DNA of 64,000 nucleotides from contig NZ_LT906479.1 in the NCBI RefSeq assembly GCF_900187015.1, forward strand, positions 2,170,001 to 2,234,000, written 5' to 3'. Below are positions 7,622-34,513 of the stretch, in pieces. The notes under the pieces were generated by a model that was not told where the DNA came from, made no database searches, and worked only from the letters and a program-made list of their open reading frames with translations. Position 1 is the stretch's first letter, and each line of letters opens with the position of its first letter. This DNA comes from Serratia ficaria (GTDB lineage: Bacteria; Pseudomonadota; Gammaproteobacteria; Enterobacterales; Enterobacteriaceae). A program made the translations under genes and the position numbers.

Positions 7622-8509
<888 letters not shown>

Positions 8510-8525
8510 GCGCCAACGGCGTCAT

Positions 8526-9270
8526 AAAAAAGCCCGACTCTCGTCGTAATGCTTGTCAGTTAGCGTTTTCTGCAGGCGTCCGTGAAATTTTCGGTCGATA
8601 AAGGTGAGATGCGCCATGAGGATCCCGCGCCTCGACCGAGCAAGGGACCGTGGGCGCGGTCCCTTGCAACCCGCGCCTTTGCCCTATCAGACGGTTGGCT
8701 GTGCCAACTCCCCTCCCTCCGTCCCGTCGCATCACGGCCGGCTACGACAGGCGTCCCTGCCTGTCTCGCCTGAAACCGCCGTCCTTGGCGGTTTCGCCTA
8801 TGCGCCGCTCCTGCGTTCGGCGTCTTCAAGGGCGCCTAACATCGTGCTCATCCCATCATTTTCACTGTCTTCCATAACGTAATATCAAACGGAGGGGACA
8901 AGTTGCCCGGTGGCTGCAGATTCGGGTGTTGACCTTGGGCGCGCATCGCCGGCTGCCGAGCAAGACGGCGTTGTCAGGGGCAACCGGCCAGGGAAGGCCG
9001 GTTGAGGCGAGACTAACAGGGACGTTTGTCGTAGCCGACCCGCCCGACAACGCTGGTGCAGCGAGGGAACCCGTAGGGCAGACGGTGTTAAGCGGAGGCG
9101 CGGGTGGAGGGGCCGCGCCTTCGGCCCCTCCAATTGCCGTACATTGCGGTAGCAGAGAAATACAGGGTATTTACGGCAATTCCTCCTGCGCAGAGCGTAC
9201 AGAGGTTGGATAAAAAAATGCCAGTCAGGCTTAACTGACTGGCATTACGACTCTCGTCGGGCTTTTTTTT
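8526..9270. terminator. Bidirectional kdsA/dauA terminator, interrupted
   Basis: The left half AAAAAAGCCCGAC (8526-8538) and the right half GTCGGGCTTTTTTTT (9256-9270) are perfect complements. With the loop TCTC they would form one intrinsic terminator serving both convergent genes. They are now separated by the repeat element, and CGACTCTCGTCG is present on both sides (8535-8546 and 9248-9259). Confidence 0.8.
8547..9247. repeat. Terminator-nested fold-back repeat, long copy (701 bp)
   Basis: The ends are imperfect inverted repeats: TAATGCTTGTCAGTTA on the left, and TAATGCCAGTCAGTTA when the right end is read in reverse. The element is flanked by a 12-bp direct duplication (8535-8546, 9248-9259). 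Internal arms 8739-8773 and 9001-9038 pair over about 35 bp, and shorter hairpins lie at 8773-8795 and 8981-9004. The right end carries hairpin ATGCCAGTCAG/CTGACTGGCAT followed by seven U on the minus strand. About 160 bp at the left and 130 bp at the right closely match a second copy at 33062-33356. No transposase or convincing ORF lies inside. It looks like a non-autonomous mobile repeat. Confidence 0.85.
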
Positions 9271-25762: not shown

Positions 25763-27322
25763 TCACAGAGTGGCTAAATACTTCTCAACCTGATTTTTCA
25801 CCTTGCCGACGGTGACGCCATAAATAACCTGCACTTCACGCCGATTTTTCACCACCCCTTTGGCGCCGGTGCTTTTTAATGCCGCTTCGTCTACCTGTTG
25901 CAGGTCTTTTAATTCCACCCGCAGCCGGGTAAAGCAGTTATCGACGGAAATGATATTGTCCTTGCCGCCGAGGGCGCGAATAATAATGCCGCTCAGTTCA
26001 TTCGGTTGGTTCTTGCTGTTCTGATAATCCTGTTTGGAATACAGTTTGACGTCGTCCCGGTCTTCACGGCCCGGCGTTTTCAAATTGAGTTTCAGCACCA
26101 GGGTTTTGAACACCAGGTAATAGACCGCGAATTGCACCAGGCCAATCACCACGTATAGCGGCCAGCGGGTAAGGGTGGCCGGCAGCGGCAGGTTGTACAC
26201 CAAAAACTCGATCAGGCCGCTGGCGCCCCAGGGGCGCACCTCGAACAGGTTGCAGGCCACCTGCGACAGCGCGGTCAGCACCGCGTGGATCACCCACAGC
26301 AGCGGTGAGATAAACAGGAAGGTGAATTCGATAGGTTCGGTGATGCCCACCAGAATTGACGTGGTGATGGCGGGGATCAGGATCGCCTTGGCCAGCGTTT
26401 TTTTCTCCGGTTTGGCGGTGCGGTAAAACGCCAGCGCCGCGCCCGACAGGCCGAAAATGGTCACCATGCCCTGTTGCGAGAAGCGCAGCGCCTCGTTCAT
26501 CAACGGCGAGATGCCCGGGTCGCGCATATAGGCCAGGAAGATCGCCTGCGAGCCGGAGACGGTATGGCCATCCTGCACGATAGAGCCGCCGATGCTGGTG
26601 AGCTGGAACGGCGACCAGATAAAGTGGTGCAGCCCGGTGGGAATGAGGAATTTCTCGAAGAAGCCGTAAACGAACACGCCGAGCGAGCCGGAGCTTTTCA
26701 TAAAGCCGGTCAGCGAGATCAGGCCGTGCGAAATGGCCGGCCACAGGTAGCTGAAGGCGATGGCGTATACCAGGATCACCGGCGTCATGGCGATCAGCAC
26801 CAGCTTGGCGCCGCCGTACACCGAGAACACGCCGCCCAGCTCGACGTTGCACAGGCGGTTATGCACCCAGGCGATGGTGACGCCGAGGATCAGGCCGAGG
26901 AAGATGCCCATGTCCACCACGGTGAAGCCCAGCAGCTCGGTCTGCCCGGTGCCGTAGTGTTCGCCGTTGATTTTTTGCGCCACCTGGCCGCTGAGCTGCA
27001 GATAAGAGGCGTTGGCGCCGAGAAACATGATAAAGCACATTACCGCCACCAGCGCCGCTTCGCTTTTTTTATCCCTGGCTAATCCGTAGGTAATGCCGAT
27101 GCAGAAAATCAGGCCGAGGTTGCCGAATAATGGCCAGAAGGTATCGCCGATCATTTTTCCGACATGAAAAATGCCGGAACTTTCATTAACCAGCGTGGGA
27201 TTGGTGAGAATAGAACTTAATGCCAGTATCAGGCCGATAACCGGCAGAAAAAATATCGGTCCCATCATGGCTTTGGAAAAAAGCTGCAGCTTGTTCAAGA
27301 TATTATCAATAATACCTTTCAT
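25763..27322 (-). CDS. PTS permease EIICB, alpha-glucoside/glucose superfamily
   Basis: A 519-residue sugar phosphotransferase permease with an N-terminal EIIC membrane domain (FSKAMMGPIFFLPVIGLILALSSI, EKFLIPTGLHHFIWSPFQL, GITEPIEFTFLFI) and a C-terminal EIIB domain with the phosphocysteine in SVDNCFTRLRVELKD. There is no EIIA domain, so it needs a partner such as the glucose EIIA. Paired with the GH4 gene it would import and split a phosphorylated glucoside. The exact sugar is unknown; resemblance is to the MalX/GlvC/AglA group. Confidence 0.85.
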   Translation of the reverse strand: MKGIIDNILNKLQLFSKAMMGPIFFLPVIGLILALSSILTNPTLVNESSGIFHVGKMIGDTFWPLFGNLGLIFCIGITYGLARDKKSEAALVAVMCFIMFLGANASYLQLSGQVAQKINGEHYGTGQTELLGFTVVDMGIFLGLILGVTIAWVHNRLCNVELGGVFSVYGGAKLVLIAMTPVILVYAIAFSYLWPAISHGLISLTGFMKSSGSLGVFVYGFFEKFLIPTGLHHFIWSPFQLTSIGGSIVQDGHTVSGSQAIFLAYMRDPGISPLMNEALRFSQQGMVTIFGLSGAALAFYRTAKPEKKTLAKAILIPAITTSILVGITEPIEFTFLFISPLLWVIHAVLTALSQVACNLFEVRPWGASGLIEFLVYNLPLPATLTRWPLYVVIGLVQFAVYYLVFKTLVLKLNLKTPGREDRDDVKLYSKQDYQNSKNQPNELSGIIIRALGGKDNIISVDNCFTRLRVELKDLQQVDEAALKSTGAKGVVKNRREVQVIYGVTVGKVKNQVEKYLATL

Positions 27323-31864: not shown

Positions 31865-31953
31865 ACGACGCTTGCCTTTGTCATAATTGCTTGCCGCAAC
31901 AATGATTTGCTCTTAGTGTGAGGGAACACTTTTTAAGCGCAAGGACTTGCAGT

Positions 31954-33042
31954 ATGAGCACTGAGTACCGCATCGACAGCCAGAGCCTGGGGCAGTTCGT
32001 TCAGGCCATCTGGCGCCAGGCCGGTAGCACGGCGCGCGAGGCCGAACTGGTGGCCGAGCACCTGGTGCAGGCCAATTTGGCCGGGCACGATTCGCACGGC
32101 GTCGGCATGATCCCCAGCTACATGGCCTCGCTGGCGCAGGGGCAGTTGCAGCTTAATCAACACGCCGAGGTGGTGCGCGACGCCGGCGCGGTGCTGACCG
32201 TCAACGGCGGCCGGGGCTTTGGCCAGGTGGTGGCCAACGAGGCGATGGCCAAGGGCATCGAACGCGCCGGGCAACTGGGGCTGGCGGCGGTGGCGTTGCA
32301 CAATGCGCACCATATCGGCCGCATCGGCCACTGGGCGGAACAGTGCGCCCGCGCCGGCTTTATCTCGATTCACTTCGTCAACGTGGTGGGCGATCCTATG
32401 GTGGCGCCATTCGGCGGCAGCGATCGCCGCTTCGGCACCAATCCGTTCTGCGTCATCTTCCCGCGGCCGGGGAAAACCCCGCTGCTGCTGGACTTCGCCA
32501 CCAGCGGCATCGCCTTCGGTAAAACCCGCGTGGCCTACAACAAAGGCTTGCAGGTGGCGCCGGGCTACCTGATTGACCAGCATGGCCAACCGACCCGGGA
32601 ACCTAAGGTGATGCACCAACAGCCGTTCGGCTCGCTGCTGCCGTTCGGCGCCCACAAGGGCTATGCGCTGGCGGCGCTGTGCGAGATCCTCGGCGGCGCG
32701 CTGTCCGGCGGCCGCACTACCCATGACGCGACCCTGAAGGCCGACAGCGACGCCATCTTCAACTGCATGACCACCCTGATCCTCAACCCGCAGGCCTTCG
32801 AGGCGCCGGCGATGCAGGAAGAGGCCGAAGCCTTCATCGACTGGGTCAAGGCTTCGCCGCCGAGCGACGGCCAGCCGATCGCGGTGCCGGGCGAGTGGGA
32901 AGAGGCCAACCGCGCGGCGCGGCTGCAGCAGGGCATCCCGGTGGACGCCAACACCTGGCGGCAGATTTGCGCCGCCGCGCAGCAGGCCGGCATGGCGGAT
33001 TCCGAGCTGGACGGCTACCGCGCCCAGGCGCGGCAGGCATAA
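31954..33042 (+). CDS. hcxB: Hydroxycarboxylate dehydrogenase HcxB (Ldh/MDH2 family)
   Basis: NAD(P)-dependent oxidoreductase of the malate/L-lactate dehydrogenase type 2 family. The 362-residue protein matches E. coli YbiC (HcxB) over its whole length, including AGHDSHGVGMIPSY, LHNAHHIGRIGHWAEQC, FGTNPFCVIFPRP and HKGYALAALCEILGGALSGG. E. coli HcxB reduces 2-oxoacids such as phenylpyruvate. The start at 31954 has an AAGGA site; the upstream frame to 31918 lacks one. It is placed between pepT and roxA here, unlike in E. coli. Confidence 0.88.
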   Translation: MSTEYRIDSQSLGQFVQAIWRQAGSTAREAELVAEHLVQANLAGHDSHGVGMIPSYMASLAQGQLQLNQHAEVVRDAGAVLTVNGGRGFGQVVANEAMAKGIERAGQLGLAAVALHNAHHIGRIGHWAEQCARAGFISIHFVNVVGDPMVAPFGGSDRRFGTNPFCVIFPRPGKTPLLLDFATSGIAFGKTRVAYNKGLQVAPGYLIDQHGQPTREPKVMHQQPFGSLLPFGAHKGYALAALCEILGGALSGGRTTHDATLKADSDAIFNCMTTLILNPQAFEAPAMQEEAEAFIDWVKASPPSDGQPIAVPGEWEEANRAARLQQGIPVDANTWRQICAAAQQAGMADSELDGYRAQARQA

Positions 33043-33373
33043 AAAAGCCACCCGAATGGGTTAATGCTTGTCAGTTAGCGTTTTTCTGCGGGCGTTGGAG
33101 AAGTTTTCGGTCGATGAATATGAGATGTACCATGAAGCTCACGCGCCTCGACCGAGCAAGGGACCGTGGGCGCGGCCCCTTGCAACCCGCGCCTTTGCCC
33201 AATCAGACGGTTGGCTACGCCAACGTTACTCGGCCCCTCCAAGTGCCGTTCATTGCGGTAGCAGAGAAATGCAGGGTATTTACGGCAATTCTTCCTGCAC
33301 GGAGCGAACAGAGATTGGATAAAAAAATGCCAGTCAGGCTTAACTGACCGGCATTACCCGAATGGGTGGCTTT
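33041..33373. terminator. Bidirectional hcxB/roxA terminator, interrupted
   Basis: The left half AAAAAAGCCACCC (33041-33053) and right half GGGTGGCTTTA (33364-33374) are complementary and would form one terminator with loop GAAT. A repeat element now separates them, and CCCGAATGGGT occurs on both sides (33051-33061, 33357-33367). Confidence 0.75.
33062..33356. repeat. Terminator-nested fold-back repeat, short copy (295 bp)
   Basis: It shares with the 8547-9247 copy the left end TAATGCTTGTCAGTTAGCG, the central CTCGACCGAGCAAGGGACCG block and the whole right end (CCGTTCATTGCGG... to ...TAACTGACCGGCATTA). It lacks the ~410-bp middle present in the long copy. The right end again forms ATGCCAGTCAG/CTGACCGGCAT, preceded by an A-run, so on the minus strand it is a hairpin followed by seven U. 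It is flanked by an 11-12 bp direct duplication made from the loop and inner stem of the host terminator. No ORF inside is credible. Confidence 0.85.
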
Positions 33374-33391
33374 ATTGTTTCAATCGTCAGC

Positions 33392-34513
33392 TCAGTCGTT
33401 AAAGTACCAGTACCCGCTGTTGACCAGCGCGGTGAGCAGCGCCAGGAACGACGGATCGTCCAGCGCCTCGCCGAGCAGGGCGGCGTCGACGCTGAAGTGC
33501 TGGCACAGGGCGTTTGCGGCCTGCAGGTGTTCGGTGTCGATCAGTTCGCCGTTGACGAAGCACTGGTCGCCGACGCGCAGCACGCGCAGGCCGCCCAGGC
33601 GTTGCAGCAGCTCGCCTTGCTGCAGCAGCTCGTAAATTTCACCGGCCTGATACGGCGGCTCCGGCGGGGAGATGTCCAGCTCGTGGCGCGACTGCGAGGT
33701 AAACTCGCCGAACCAGTGCTGGAAGTGTTCCGGCTGCTGCACCAGTTCCAGCATCATCTGCCGCAGCGCGTCGACCTCCTGCGGCAGCACCTCGGCCGGC
33801 TGCTCGCGCAGCTTGATGTCCGGATCGCTGTAGCGCTTGCTGCCCAGCTCACGCGCCAGCACGTAGTCGGCGAAGCCGCTGACCAGTTCGCGGCCGTTCG
33901 GCGCGCGGAAGCCCACCGAGTAGTTCAGCGCGTTTTCCAGCGCGTAGCCCTCGTGCGGGAAGCCCGGCGGGATATACAGAATGTCGCCCGGTTCCATTTC
34001 TTCGTCGATGATGGCGTCGAAAGGTTCTACCTGCAGCAGGTCCGGATGCGGGCTGTGCTGTTTCATCGGCAGCTTCTCGCCCACCCGCCAACGGCGGCGG
34101 CCGGTACCCTGGATGATAAACACGTCGTACTGATCGAGGTGCGGGCCGACGCCGCCGCCCGGCACCGAGAAGGAGATCATCAGGTCATCCATTCGCCAGT
34201 CCGGCAGTTGGCGGAACGGGCGCATCAGCGCGCTGGAAGGCTCATGCCAGTGATCCACCGCCTGCACCAGCAGCGACCAGTTATTCTCGCCGAGGTGATC
34301 AAAGCTCTCGAAGGGGCCGTGCGCAACCTGCCAGCGGCCGTCCTGATGGCTGACCAGGCGGCTGTCCACTTCGTTTTCCATCGCCAGGCCGGCCAGCTCA
34401 TCCGGGGAGATCGGATCGATAAAGTTTTTGAAGCCGCGCTTCAGAATCACCGGACGTTTTTGCCAATAGCGTTGCAAAAAATCGTTCCAGTCCAGATCTA
34501 ATTGATAATCCAT
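33392..34513 (-). CDS. roxA: Ribosomal protein uL16 arginine hydroxylase RoxA
   Basis: JmjC-type Fe(II)/2-oxoglutarate oxygenase that hydroxylates an arginine of 50S protein L16 (E. coli YcfD). The 373-residue protein is exactly the E. coli length. The iron-binding HxD appears in GVGPHLDQYDVFIIQ. A C-terminal winged-helix region follows the cupin core. It lies downstream of phoPQ in the same direction, as in E. coli, but separated by a 207-bp gap carrying a palindromic repeat. Confidence 0.95.
   Translation of the reverse strand: MDYQLDLDWNDFLQRYWQKRPVILKRGFKNFIDPISPDELAGLAMENEVDSRLVSHQDGRWQVAHGPFESFDHLGENNWSLLVQAVDHWHEPSSALMRPFRQLPDWRMDDLMISFSVPGGGVGPHLDQYDVFIIQGTGRRRWRVGEKLPMKQHSPHPDLLQVEPFDAIIDEEMEPGDILYIPPGFPHEGYALENALNYSVGFRAPNGRELVSGFADYVLARELGSKRYSDPDIKLREQPAEVLPQEVDALRQMMLELVQQPEHFQHWFGEFTSQSRHELDISPPEPPYQAGEIYELLQQGELLQRLGGLRVLRVGDQCFVNGELIDTEHLQAANALCQHFSVDAALLGEALDDPSFLALLTALVNSGYWYFND

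Follow-up and report, generated by a model that had tools for sequence, protein, structure and literature searches.

Within the window, by which we mean the whole 64,000-nucleotide stretch of Serratia ficaria DNA analyzed here, a short repeat interrupts the transcription terminator between two convergent genes, and a second copy with the same ends interrupts another one. What is this repeat, and how does it come to sit inside terminators? An earlier note on this DNA had suggested that hairpin structure or palindromes, rather than sequence, are recognized. As set out below, the repeat is very probably a transposase-less derivative of the IS4 subgroup that was mobilized in trans, targets terminators, and brings a predicted terminator of its own that would in part replace that of the host.

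The split terminator between the hcxB-like gene and roxA

The repeat is a non-autonomous element (MITE) of 295 bp at positions 33062-33356 (plus strand), with IS4-subgroup-like ends that form imperfect inverted repeats (TAATGCTTGTCAGTTA.../TAATGCCGGTCAGTTA...). Upstream lies the hcxB-like gene, so named after the earlier note, of the malate/lactate/ureidoglycolate dehydrogenase family (31918-33042, plus strand; NF007504, 619 bits). The convergent ORF downstream (33392-34513, minus strand) is presumably roxA, as the earlier note named it, and matched no NCBIfam model at E≤0.001.

On both sides, the element is bordered by a target duplication, CCCGAATGGGT, at 33051-33061 and 33357-33367. The duplication spans 11 bp, or 12 bp from position 33050 (ACCCGAATGGGT) when the A that is common to the element end is counted. 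Outside of it, both outer halves of a terminator are undamaged, namely an A-tract plus GCC on the left (33041-33049, AAAAAAGCC) and GGC plus a T-tract on the right (33368-33373, GGCTTT). The host thus reads AAAAAAGCC-ACCCGAATGGGT to the left of the element and (A)CCCGAATGGGT-GGCTTT to the right, from which it follows that a hairpin, AAAAAAGCCACCCGAATGGGTGGCTTT, was split and its core duplicated.

The corresponding empty site is found in related genomes. Among 28 roxA loci of the genus, 19 (the window's own included) have an hcxB-like match beside roxA. The flank matches are 331 bp apart in the window versus 22-89 bp in the 18 other loci, none of which carries the element in this gene pair. An undivided hairpin with an A-run and the pattern GCCA...TGGC is present in 16 of these 18, and the remaining two show a comparable hairpin that either contains a mismatch or lacks the A-run. 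The earlier note had placed the repeat inside a terminator between convergent genes and had derived an 11-12 bp duplication from the hairpin itself; both statements are borne out, as the duplicated sequence is the hairpin core.

Copies in the genome and the genus and their affiliation

The second copy in the window is a long form of 701 bp with the same ends (8547-9247, plus strand), flanked by the duplication CGACTCTCGTCG at 8535-8546 and 9248-9259. It splits the hairpin AAAAAAGCCCGACTCTCGTCGGGCTTTTTTTTT, within which CGACTCTCGTCG lies. Of 29 relatives, 24 have this GCCCGA..TCGGGC hairpin undivided, and the compared stretch stops short of it or differs in the five others. A DNA search of the organism's own genome gave four copies (295, 701, 850, and 225 bp), all four of them inside terminators, so that the unusual site choice noticed for the two window copies is shared by every copy that this search gave. 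A search with the end motif returned the same four copies plus two extra matches with two mismatches. These were rejected as copies, a backward control pattern being equally frequent (two matches). One of the two, a right-end motif at 25984-26000 of the window (minus strand) with no element body, is probably due to chance.

A different short palindromic sequence was met near the site of the 701-bp copy. At three loci (L267-L269), GTAGGGGCGCAGCATGCTGCGCCC adjoins the ortholog of window positions 7900-8520 on its downstream side, and a related sequence lies downstream of the same ortholog at a fourth (L272). In three related genomes, a sequence of this type stands just before the terminator that is split here by the 701-bp copy.

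The matches listed come from 19 of the 30 genus genomes searched. There are at least 84 copies in the genus; of the 84 that were fetched, the 68 with two ends were scored and the 16 with one end left out, and comparison of the flanks reduced the scored copies to 48 independent loci. The two-ended copies measure 185-850 bp and, being short and transposase-less, are MITEs. Long forms of 640-860 bp account for 41 of the 68 and copies of less than 260 bp for 14, so the 295-bp copy appears to be a shortened version. Eight ORFs of two long forms (L008 and L060) were compared with Pfam, NCBIfam, and PHROGs at E≤1 and matched nothing, so that an annotation of such sequences as encoding Ash/Icd-like proteins found no support in these three collections. 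Two stretches (L008:567-1090 and L060:686-1094) show a likeness, on both strands and below the gathering scores, to the Rfam families TwoAYGGAY (RF01731) and AaHKsRNA22 (RF02902), and a 777-bp form of the repeat shows extensive self-folding along with internal inverted repeats. We found no published description of the repeat in the CC-licensed text of PMC.

Which fraction of the copies in the genus lies in terminators? A palindromic stem of at least 5 bp, centered on the duplication, is present in some member of 40 of the 48 independent loci, and in the best-preserved member of 37. Conversely, eight loci have no stem in any member and 11 have none in the best-preserved one; several of the stemless loci have degraded or miscalled duplications. 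In 28 loci, the duplication of the best member has no more than one mismatch; of these loci, 25 have a stem and 26 an A- or T-run of at least three. For comparison, 20,000 random positions gave a centered stem of at least 5 bp in 4.9% of draws, and such a stem plus an A- or T-run of three in 0.9%. When empty sites were reconstructed for 48 copies and searched for predicted intrinsic terminators (a GC-rich stem-loop followed by a T-run), 40 had the hairpin and T-run on at least one strand and 18 on both. The duplications themselves are uniform: among 40 of at least 9 bp with at most one mismatch, 38 measure 11-13 bp and two measure 10 bp.

These duplications and the ends of the element point to its kin. 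For the IS4 subgroup, Table 1 of De Palmenaer et al. 2008 (PMC2266710) gives ends of the form -AATR--------WTW---- and direct repeats of 10-13 bp. Both ends of the repeat have this signature (AATG at positions 2-5 and WTW at 14-16) which, with duplications of 11-13 bp, fits the IS4 subgroup of the IS4 family.

In the organism's own genome, a search with the IS4 transposase model NF033592 gave no match. Above the model's cut-off, it matched in two of the 30 genus genomes, G025 and G002. The IS of G025 is 1412 bp long and encodes a transposase of 439 aa that shares 53% identity with the E. coli IS4 transposase; the transposase of the G002 IS has 438 aa and is 35% identical to the same protein, and its element has the ends TAACACCG.... 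Both transposases carry the YREK motif. The ends of the G025 IS (TAATGCTTGTCAGTTAAGC and TAATGCCGATCAGTTAAGG) closely resemble those of the repeat (TAATGCTTGTCAGTTAGCG and TAATGCCGGTCAGTTAAGC), one being identical over 16 bases and the other having one mismatch. An autonomous relative with the same ends and a transposase, as envisaged in the earlier note, thus exists in another genome of the genus and was not found in the organism's own. The complete relatives measure 1412, 1415, and 1426 bp (1400-1650 bp being the range of the subgroup), and a further G025 IS measures 1389 bp.

The complete elements have the same taste in targets. At sites with a clean duplication, a stem is present for 13 of 14 copies of the G025 IS and for all five of the G002 IS, together 18 of 19, and A- and T-tracts lie on both sides in 14 of 15 and five of five scored copies, respectively. 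One of the 15 scored G025 copies (L141) has no duplication, a different IS of that genome with a stem and a 9-bp duplication (L121) was counted apart, and five of the six G002 copies were scored, the sixth (L125) running into a contig end. From the shared ends and the shared target rule, we infer that the repeat is moved in trans by an IS4-type transposase; it is probably a MITE with IS4-subgroup ends that a relative of IS4 mobilizes. As for G025 itself, this genome (3.6 Mb versus about 5 Mb for most genomes of the genus) holds 14 uninterrupted copies of one IS4-type element (e.g., L126, L129, and L132) as well as further complete or broken ones, and the element seems to have been recently active there.

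How far does the rule extend beyond the genus? For E. coli, 21 of 60 listed matches were fetched (2669 records matched, with one place per record); 16 IS4 loci were scored, and the 21 together represent 13 distinct places. Among the matches listed, nine of these 13 have a stem of at least 5 bp. The other four, namely the K-12-type site and those in ygeA, yicI, and a DUF1175 gene, have A/T tracts but no 5-bp stem, and three of the four fall inside annotated genes. The hairpin is accordingly not obligatory for IS4. Among the relatives, some duplications fall outside 10-13 bp: the E. coli bamD-raiA site has one of 14 bp, and one G025 IS has one of 9 bp.

Inspection of 28 loci with end-like matches in other genera showed five with two-ended IS4-like elements. 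By eye, all five sit in sites with an A-run, a palindrome, and a T-run (one, L228, has a degraded duplication, and two, L227 and L242, are shortened elements). Next to some of the one-ended matches (e.g., L229, L232, and L243), no hairpin is evident. In several other loci of these genera, the right-end hairpin of the element (AATGCCGGTCAG..CTGACCGGCATT, with an A-run and a short T-run) appears as a stand-alone terminator, near position 1534 of L225, 1535 of L226, 1539 of L230, and 1534 of L246, and on the minus strand near 1536 of L235, 1542 of L241, and 1535 of L247. No second end was detected near them in the 3-kb loci at two mismatches, and they are possibly leftover IS4-type ends that have turned into host terminators.

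Arms, symmetry, and structure at the target

Aligned half-sites show A at positions -7 to -4 from the cut, followed by G/C. The A at -5 occurs in 28 of 28 half-sites of the G025 IS, 94% of those of E. coli IS4, and 72% of those of the repeat; together with the A at -6, it is nearly invariant in the ISs of G025, G002, and E. coli. Such invariance is what one would expect if the transposase read sequence only, that is, an A-tract and a T-tract about 20 bp apart with a GC-rich spacing, a pattern that terminators would match incidentally. The four E. coli sites with arms but without a 5-bp stem (K-12-type, ygeA, yicI, and DUF1175) speak for the same reading. The genomic background speaks against it, as sites with arms are rarely stemmed: in 463 kb of the organism's own genome, a stem of at least 5 bp was present in just 98 of 769 AAA-N18..22-TTT sites. 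Composition does not close the gap, given that at 70-79% GC, 35 of 90 such background sites have a stem versus 22 of 23 unique MITE sites.

A stricter comparison matched occupied and background sites by their score in a dyad profile. Palindromic sites made up 48% versus 16% for the MITE, 56% versus 12% for the G025 IS, and 45% versus 6% for E. coli IS4, where 33 of 37, nine of 14, and 11 of 16 sites, respectively, entered the comparison, the background was the organism's own genome (coding DNA included) even for the G025 and E. coli sets, and the fixed-register measure is too low for occupied sites, as duplication boundaries can shift by one base. Moreover, 37 of the 68 scored MITE copies are without one or both A/T arms of three bases, and 30 of these 37 have kept the stem. 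Weighing this, we consider recognition of sequence only to be rather unlikely. The palindromy beyond what half-sites predict and the stems of copies lacking one or both arms imply instead that symmetry and arms both matter.

Part of the excess in palindromy could stem from selection or composition, neither of which explains the register of the dyad. When the longest stem was sought within 10 bp on either side of the duplication center (ties being resolved towards the center), it lay at most 1 bp from that center in 36 of the 37 MITE copies that have a stem and a clean duplication, and exactly on it in 22. The same held for 13 of 13 copies of the G025 IS, five of five of the G002 IS, and 12 of 13 of E. 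coli IS4, whereas uniform placement would give about 12%.

If symmetry is read, is it read as a structure? The transposase might act on an extruded cruciform or on a single-stranded hairpin (e.g., one exposed on the lagging strand or in the wake of RNA polymerase), and not on duplex sequence. Cores that vary in sequence while retaining their self-complementarity, and duplications centered on the dyad, are consistent with this; however, a dimeric transposase on a palindromic duplex predicts exactly the same. Furthermore, the fixed A/T arms suggest duplex contacts, and E. coli IS4 uses sites without a hairpin. A strictly structure-specific mode of targeting is thus, in our opinion, improbable, to about the same degree as one by sequence only.

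Nor does it seem likely that the pattern arose after insertion. If elements inserted nearly at random, only copies at gene ends might persist, and in support of this, the copies are old in many genomes (judging by mismatched duplications) and the background used above includes coding DNA. Yet, centering on the dyad, within 1 bp in 36 of 37 copies, is not something that selection against gene disruption would produce. The A at -5 in every G025 IS half-site and the A/T tracts retained by in-gene E. coli IS4 insertions also argue against it, and we hold survivorship to be very improbable. Finally, the repeat could be a non-mobile terminator module spread by recombination, its right end being a predicted terminator with stand-alone look-alikes in other genera, but clean target duplications and empty sites refute this for complete copies with clean duplications and leave it next to no credence overall.

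Targeting of terminators by an IS4-type transposase that senses both arms and symmetry is hence the preferred reading, and terminator targeting as such is strongly supported by 40 of 48 genus loci, 18 of 19 IS copies, and nine of 13 E. coli IS4 loci. The proposal of the earlier note on what is recognized fared less evenly. Its first half, a hairpin or palindrome, stands insofar as self-complementarity exceeds the half-site prediction (45-56% versus 6-16%). Its second half, "rather than sequence", does not, as arms at a fixed distance are read as well and four of the 13 E. coli IS4 loci are stemless.

Predicted terminators carried by the elements and the meaning of the target

The elements do not only enter terminators; they also contain predicted ones. 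For each of four complete types (E. coli IS4, two G025 ISs, and one G002 IS), one representative was examined, and inward-facing terminators were predicted within 130 bp of all eight ends, at -14.7 to -22.1 kcal/mol. Values of -14 kcal/mol or better, a cut-off that was chosen after the values had been seen, occurred in 52 of 1500 random genomic 130-mers, in 13 of 404 interior windows, and in 12 of 1200 shuffled sequences. The left terminator directly precedes the first ATG of the transposase frame in three of the four types, namely E. coli IS4, the main G025 IS, and the G002 IS; some E. coli annotations begin the IS4 transposase gene 18 bases earlier, within the hairpin.

For the repeat, the situation is one-sided. 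Its right inverted end is a predicted terminator in 74 of the 76 copies tested, with a median of -15.5 kcal/mol; in the 295-bp element, this inward-facing terminator lies at 33321-33355 (minus strand) and consists of a 12-pair stem plus a T-run (-18.2 kcal/mol). At the left end, terminator-like hairpins occur in 58 of the 76 copies and are weak (median -4.2 kcal/mol), so that terminator replacement would be incomplete for one direction. Judging from these predictions, complete ISs would replace the terminator that they destroy, and the small element would do so in one direction only. We found no orientation bias in favor of the terminator-bearing end at one-sided terminators (7 versus 14). A separate idea, that the duplication itself preserves termination, was rejected as a general explanation: the duplicated core re-forms an exit terminator at few junctions (14 of the 48 on the right and 13 of the 48 on the left), and these are weaker in energy.

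Several of these traits have counterparts among known mobile elements. IS4 is credited with a preference for AAAN20TTT targets, and Mayaux reportedly described an IS4 insertion in the pheST attenuator in 1984. IS231A (target GGG-N5-CCC) and IS186 (target GGGG-N6/7-CCCC) are IS4-family elements that likewise use GC-rich dyads, and we know of no A/T-tract arms or terminators reported for the targets of either. Group IIC introns, the subject, it is said, of work by Robart in 2007, are retroelements that insert without a target duplication.

As for what is already in print, PMC2266710 reports strong target-arm specificity for some elements of the IS4 subgroup and some insertion specificity for IS231A, and the word "terminator" is absent from its main text, figures aside. 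The elements described here resemble that subgroup in their end signature, their duplications of 10-13 bp, and the YREK transposases of the complete relatives (as compared with PMC2266710); they differ in that the 295-bp element has no transposase and that duplications of 14 and 9 bp occur among the relatives. ISRm22, placed in the related IS4Sa subgroup (PMC2266710), targets REPs, as do IS1397, ISKpn1, and IS621 (PMC1525189; Tobes and Pareja 2006). Extragenic palindromes are insertion sites in both cases, but those ISs use one repeat family of related sequence (in the account of PMC1525189), whereas the host terminators hit here are unrelated and vary from locus to locus. Group IIC introns choose Rho-independent terminators, with the stem-loop upstream of the insertion point (as described in PMC7923331). 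They too are mobile elements that pick terminators; here, in contrast, a DNA transposon cuts inside the hairpin and leaves a duplication. Lastly, bacterial MITEs and the SPRITE, BOX, and RUP repeats are short non-coding mobile repeats, some with terminator-like hairpins (PMC10969869); the repeats described there contain terminators, whereas the present repeat inserts into them. Target-arm specificity, REP targeting, and terminator targeting by group IIC introns are thus all on record (in PMC2266710, PMC1525189, and PMC7923331, respectively), and the terminator rule reinterprets a specificity of the IS4 subgroup that was already known. In the CC-licensed text of PMC, we found neither intrinsic terminators named as the target of an IS4-type element, which is weak evidence of novelty, nor a relevant paper using the term AAAN20TTT.

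How, then, might such an insertion proceed? A miniature derivative of an IS4-subgroup IS would be mobilized in trans by an IS4-type transposase that is now undetected in the organism's own genome. The transposase would cut a two-fold symmetric target, consisting of an A-tract, a GC-rich palindrome of about 20 bp, and a T-tract, by staggered nicks 10-14 bp apart and centered on the dyad. In a bacterial genome, such a target would in practice be an intrinsic terminator at a gene end, often a bidirectional one. Insertion would split the hairpin and duplicate its core, the element's own terminator would take over, at least partly, from the destroyed host one, and the inward terminators would shield the transposase gene from read-through. 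By this choice of landing site, insertions may become tolerable, the elements bringing their own stop signals.

A broader and more tentative reading, conceivable rather than likely, is that IS4-subgroup transposases are dedicated terminator-seekers that work through symmetry (possibly an extruded hairpin) plus A/T tracts and whose elements have co-evolved inward terminators. Insertion would then swap one terminator for another and be nearly silent for both neighbors, and some enterobacterial terminators may be leftover IS4-type end hairpins.

For the subgroup, the target-arm specificity gains a concrete meaning in that the site is usually an intrinsic terminator. Terminators would be a safe harbor for a DNA transposon, much like tRNA genes in the case of phages and REPs in that of some ISs. 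The rule predicts which intergenic regions can be hit and explains why insertions at convergent gene ends can be tolerated. It also makes the question of whether a DDE transposase reads DNA hairpins or dyad symmetry directly testable with plasmid targets, and it suggests that such insertions may rewire termination between convergent genes.
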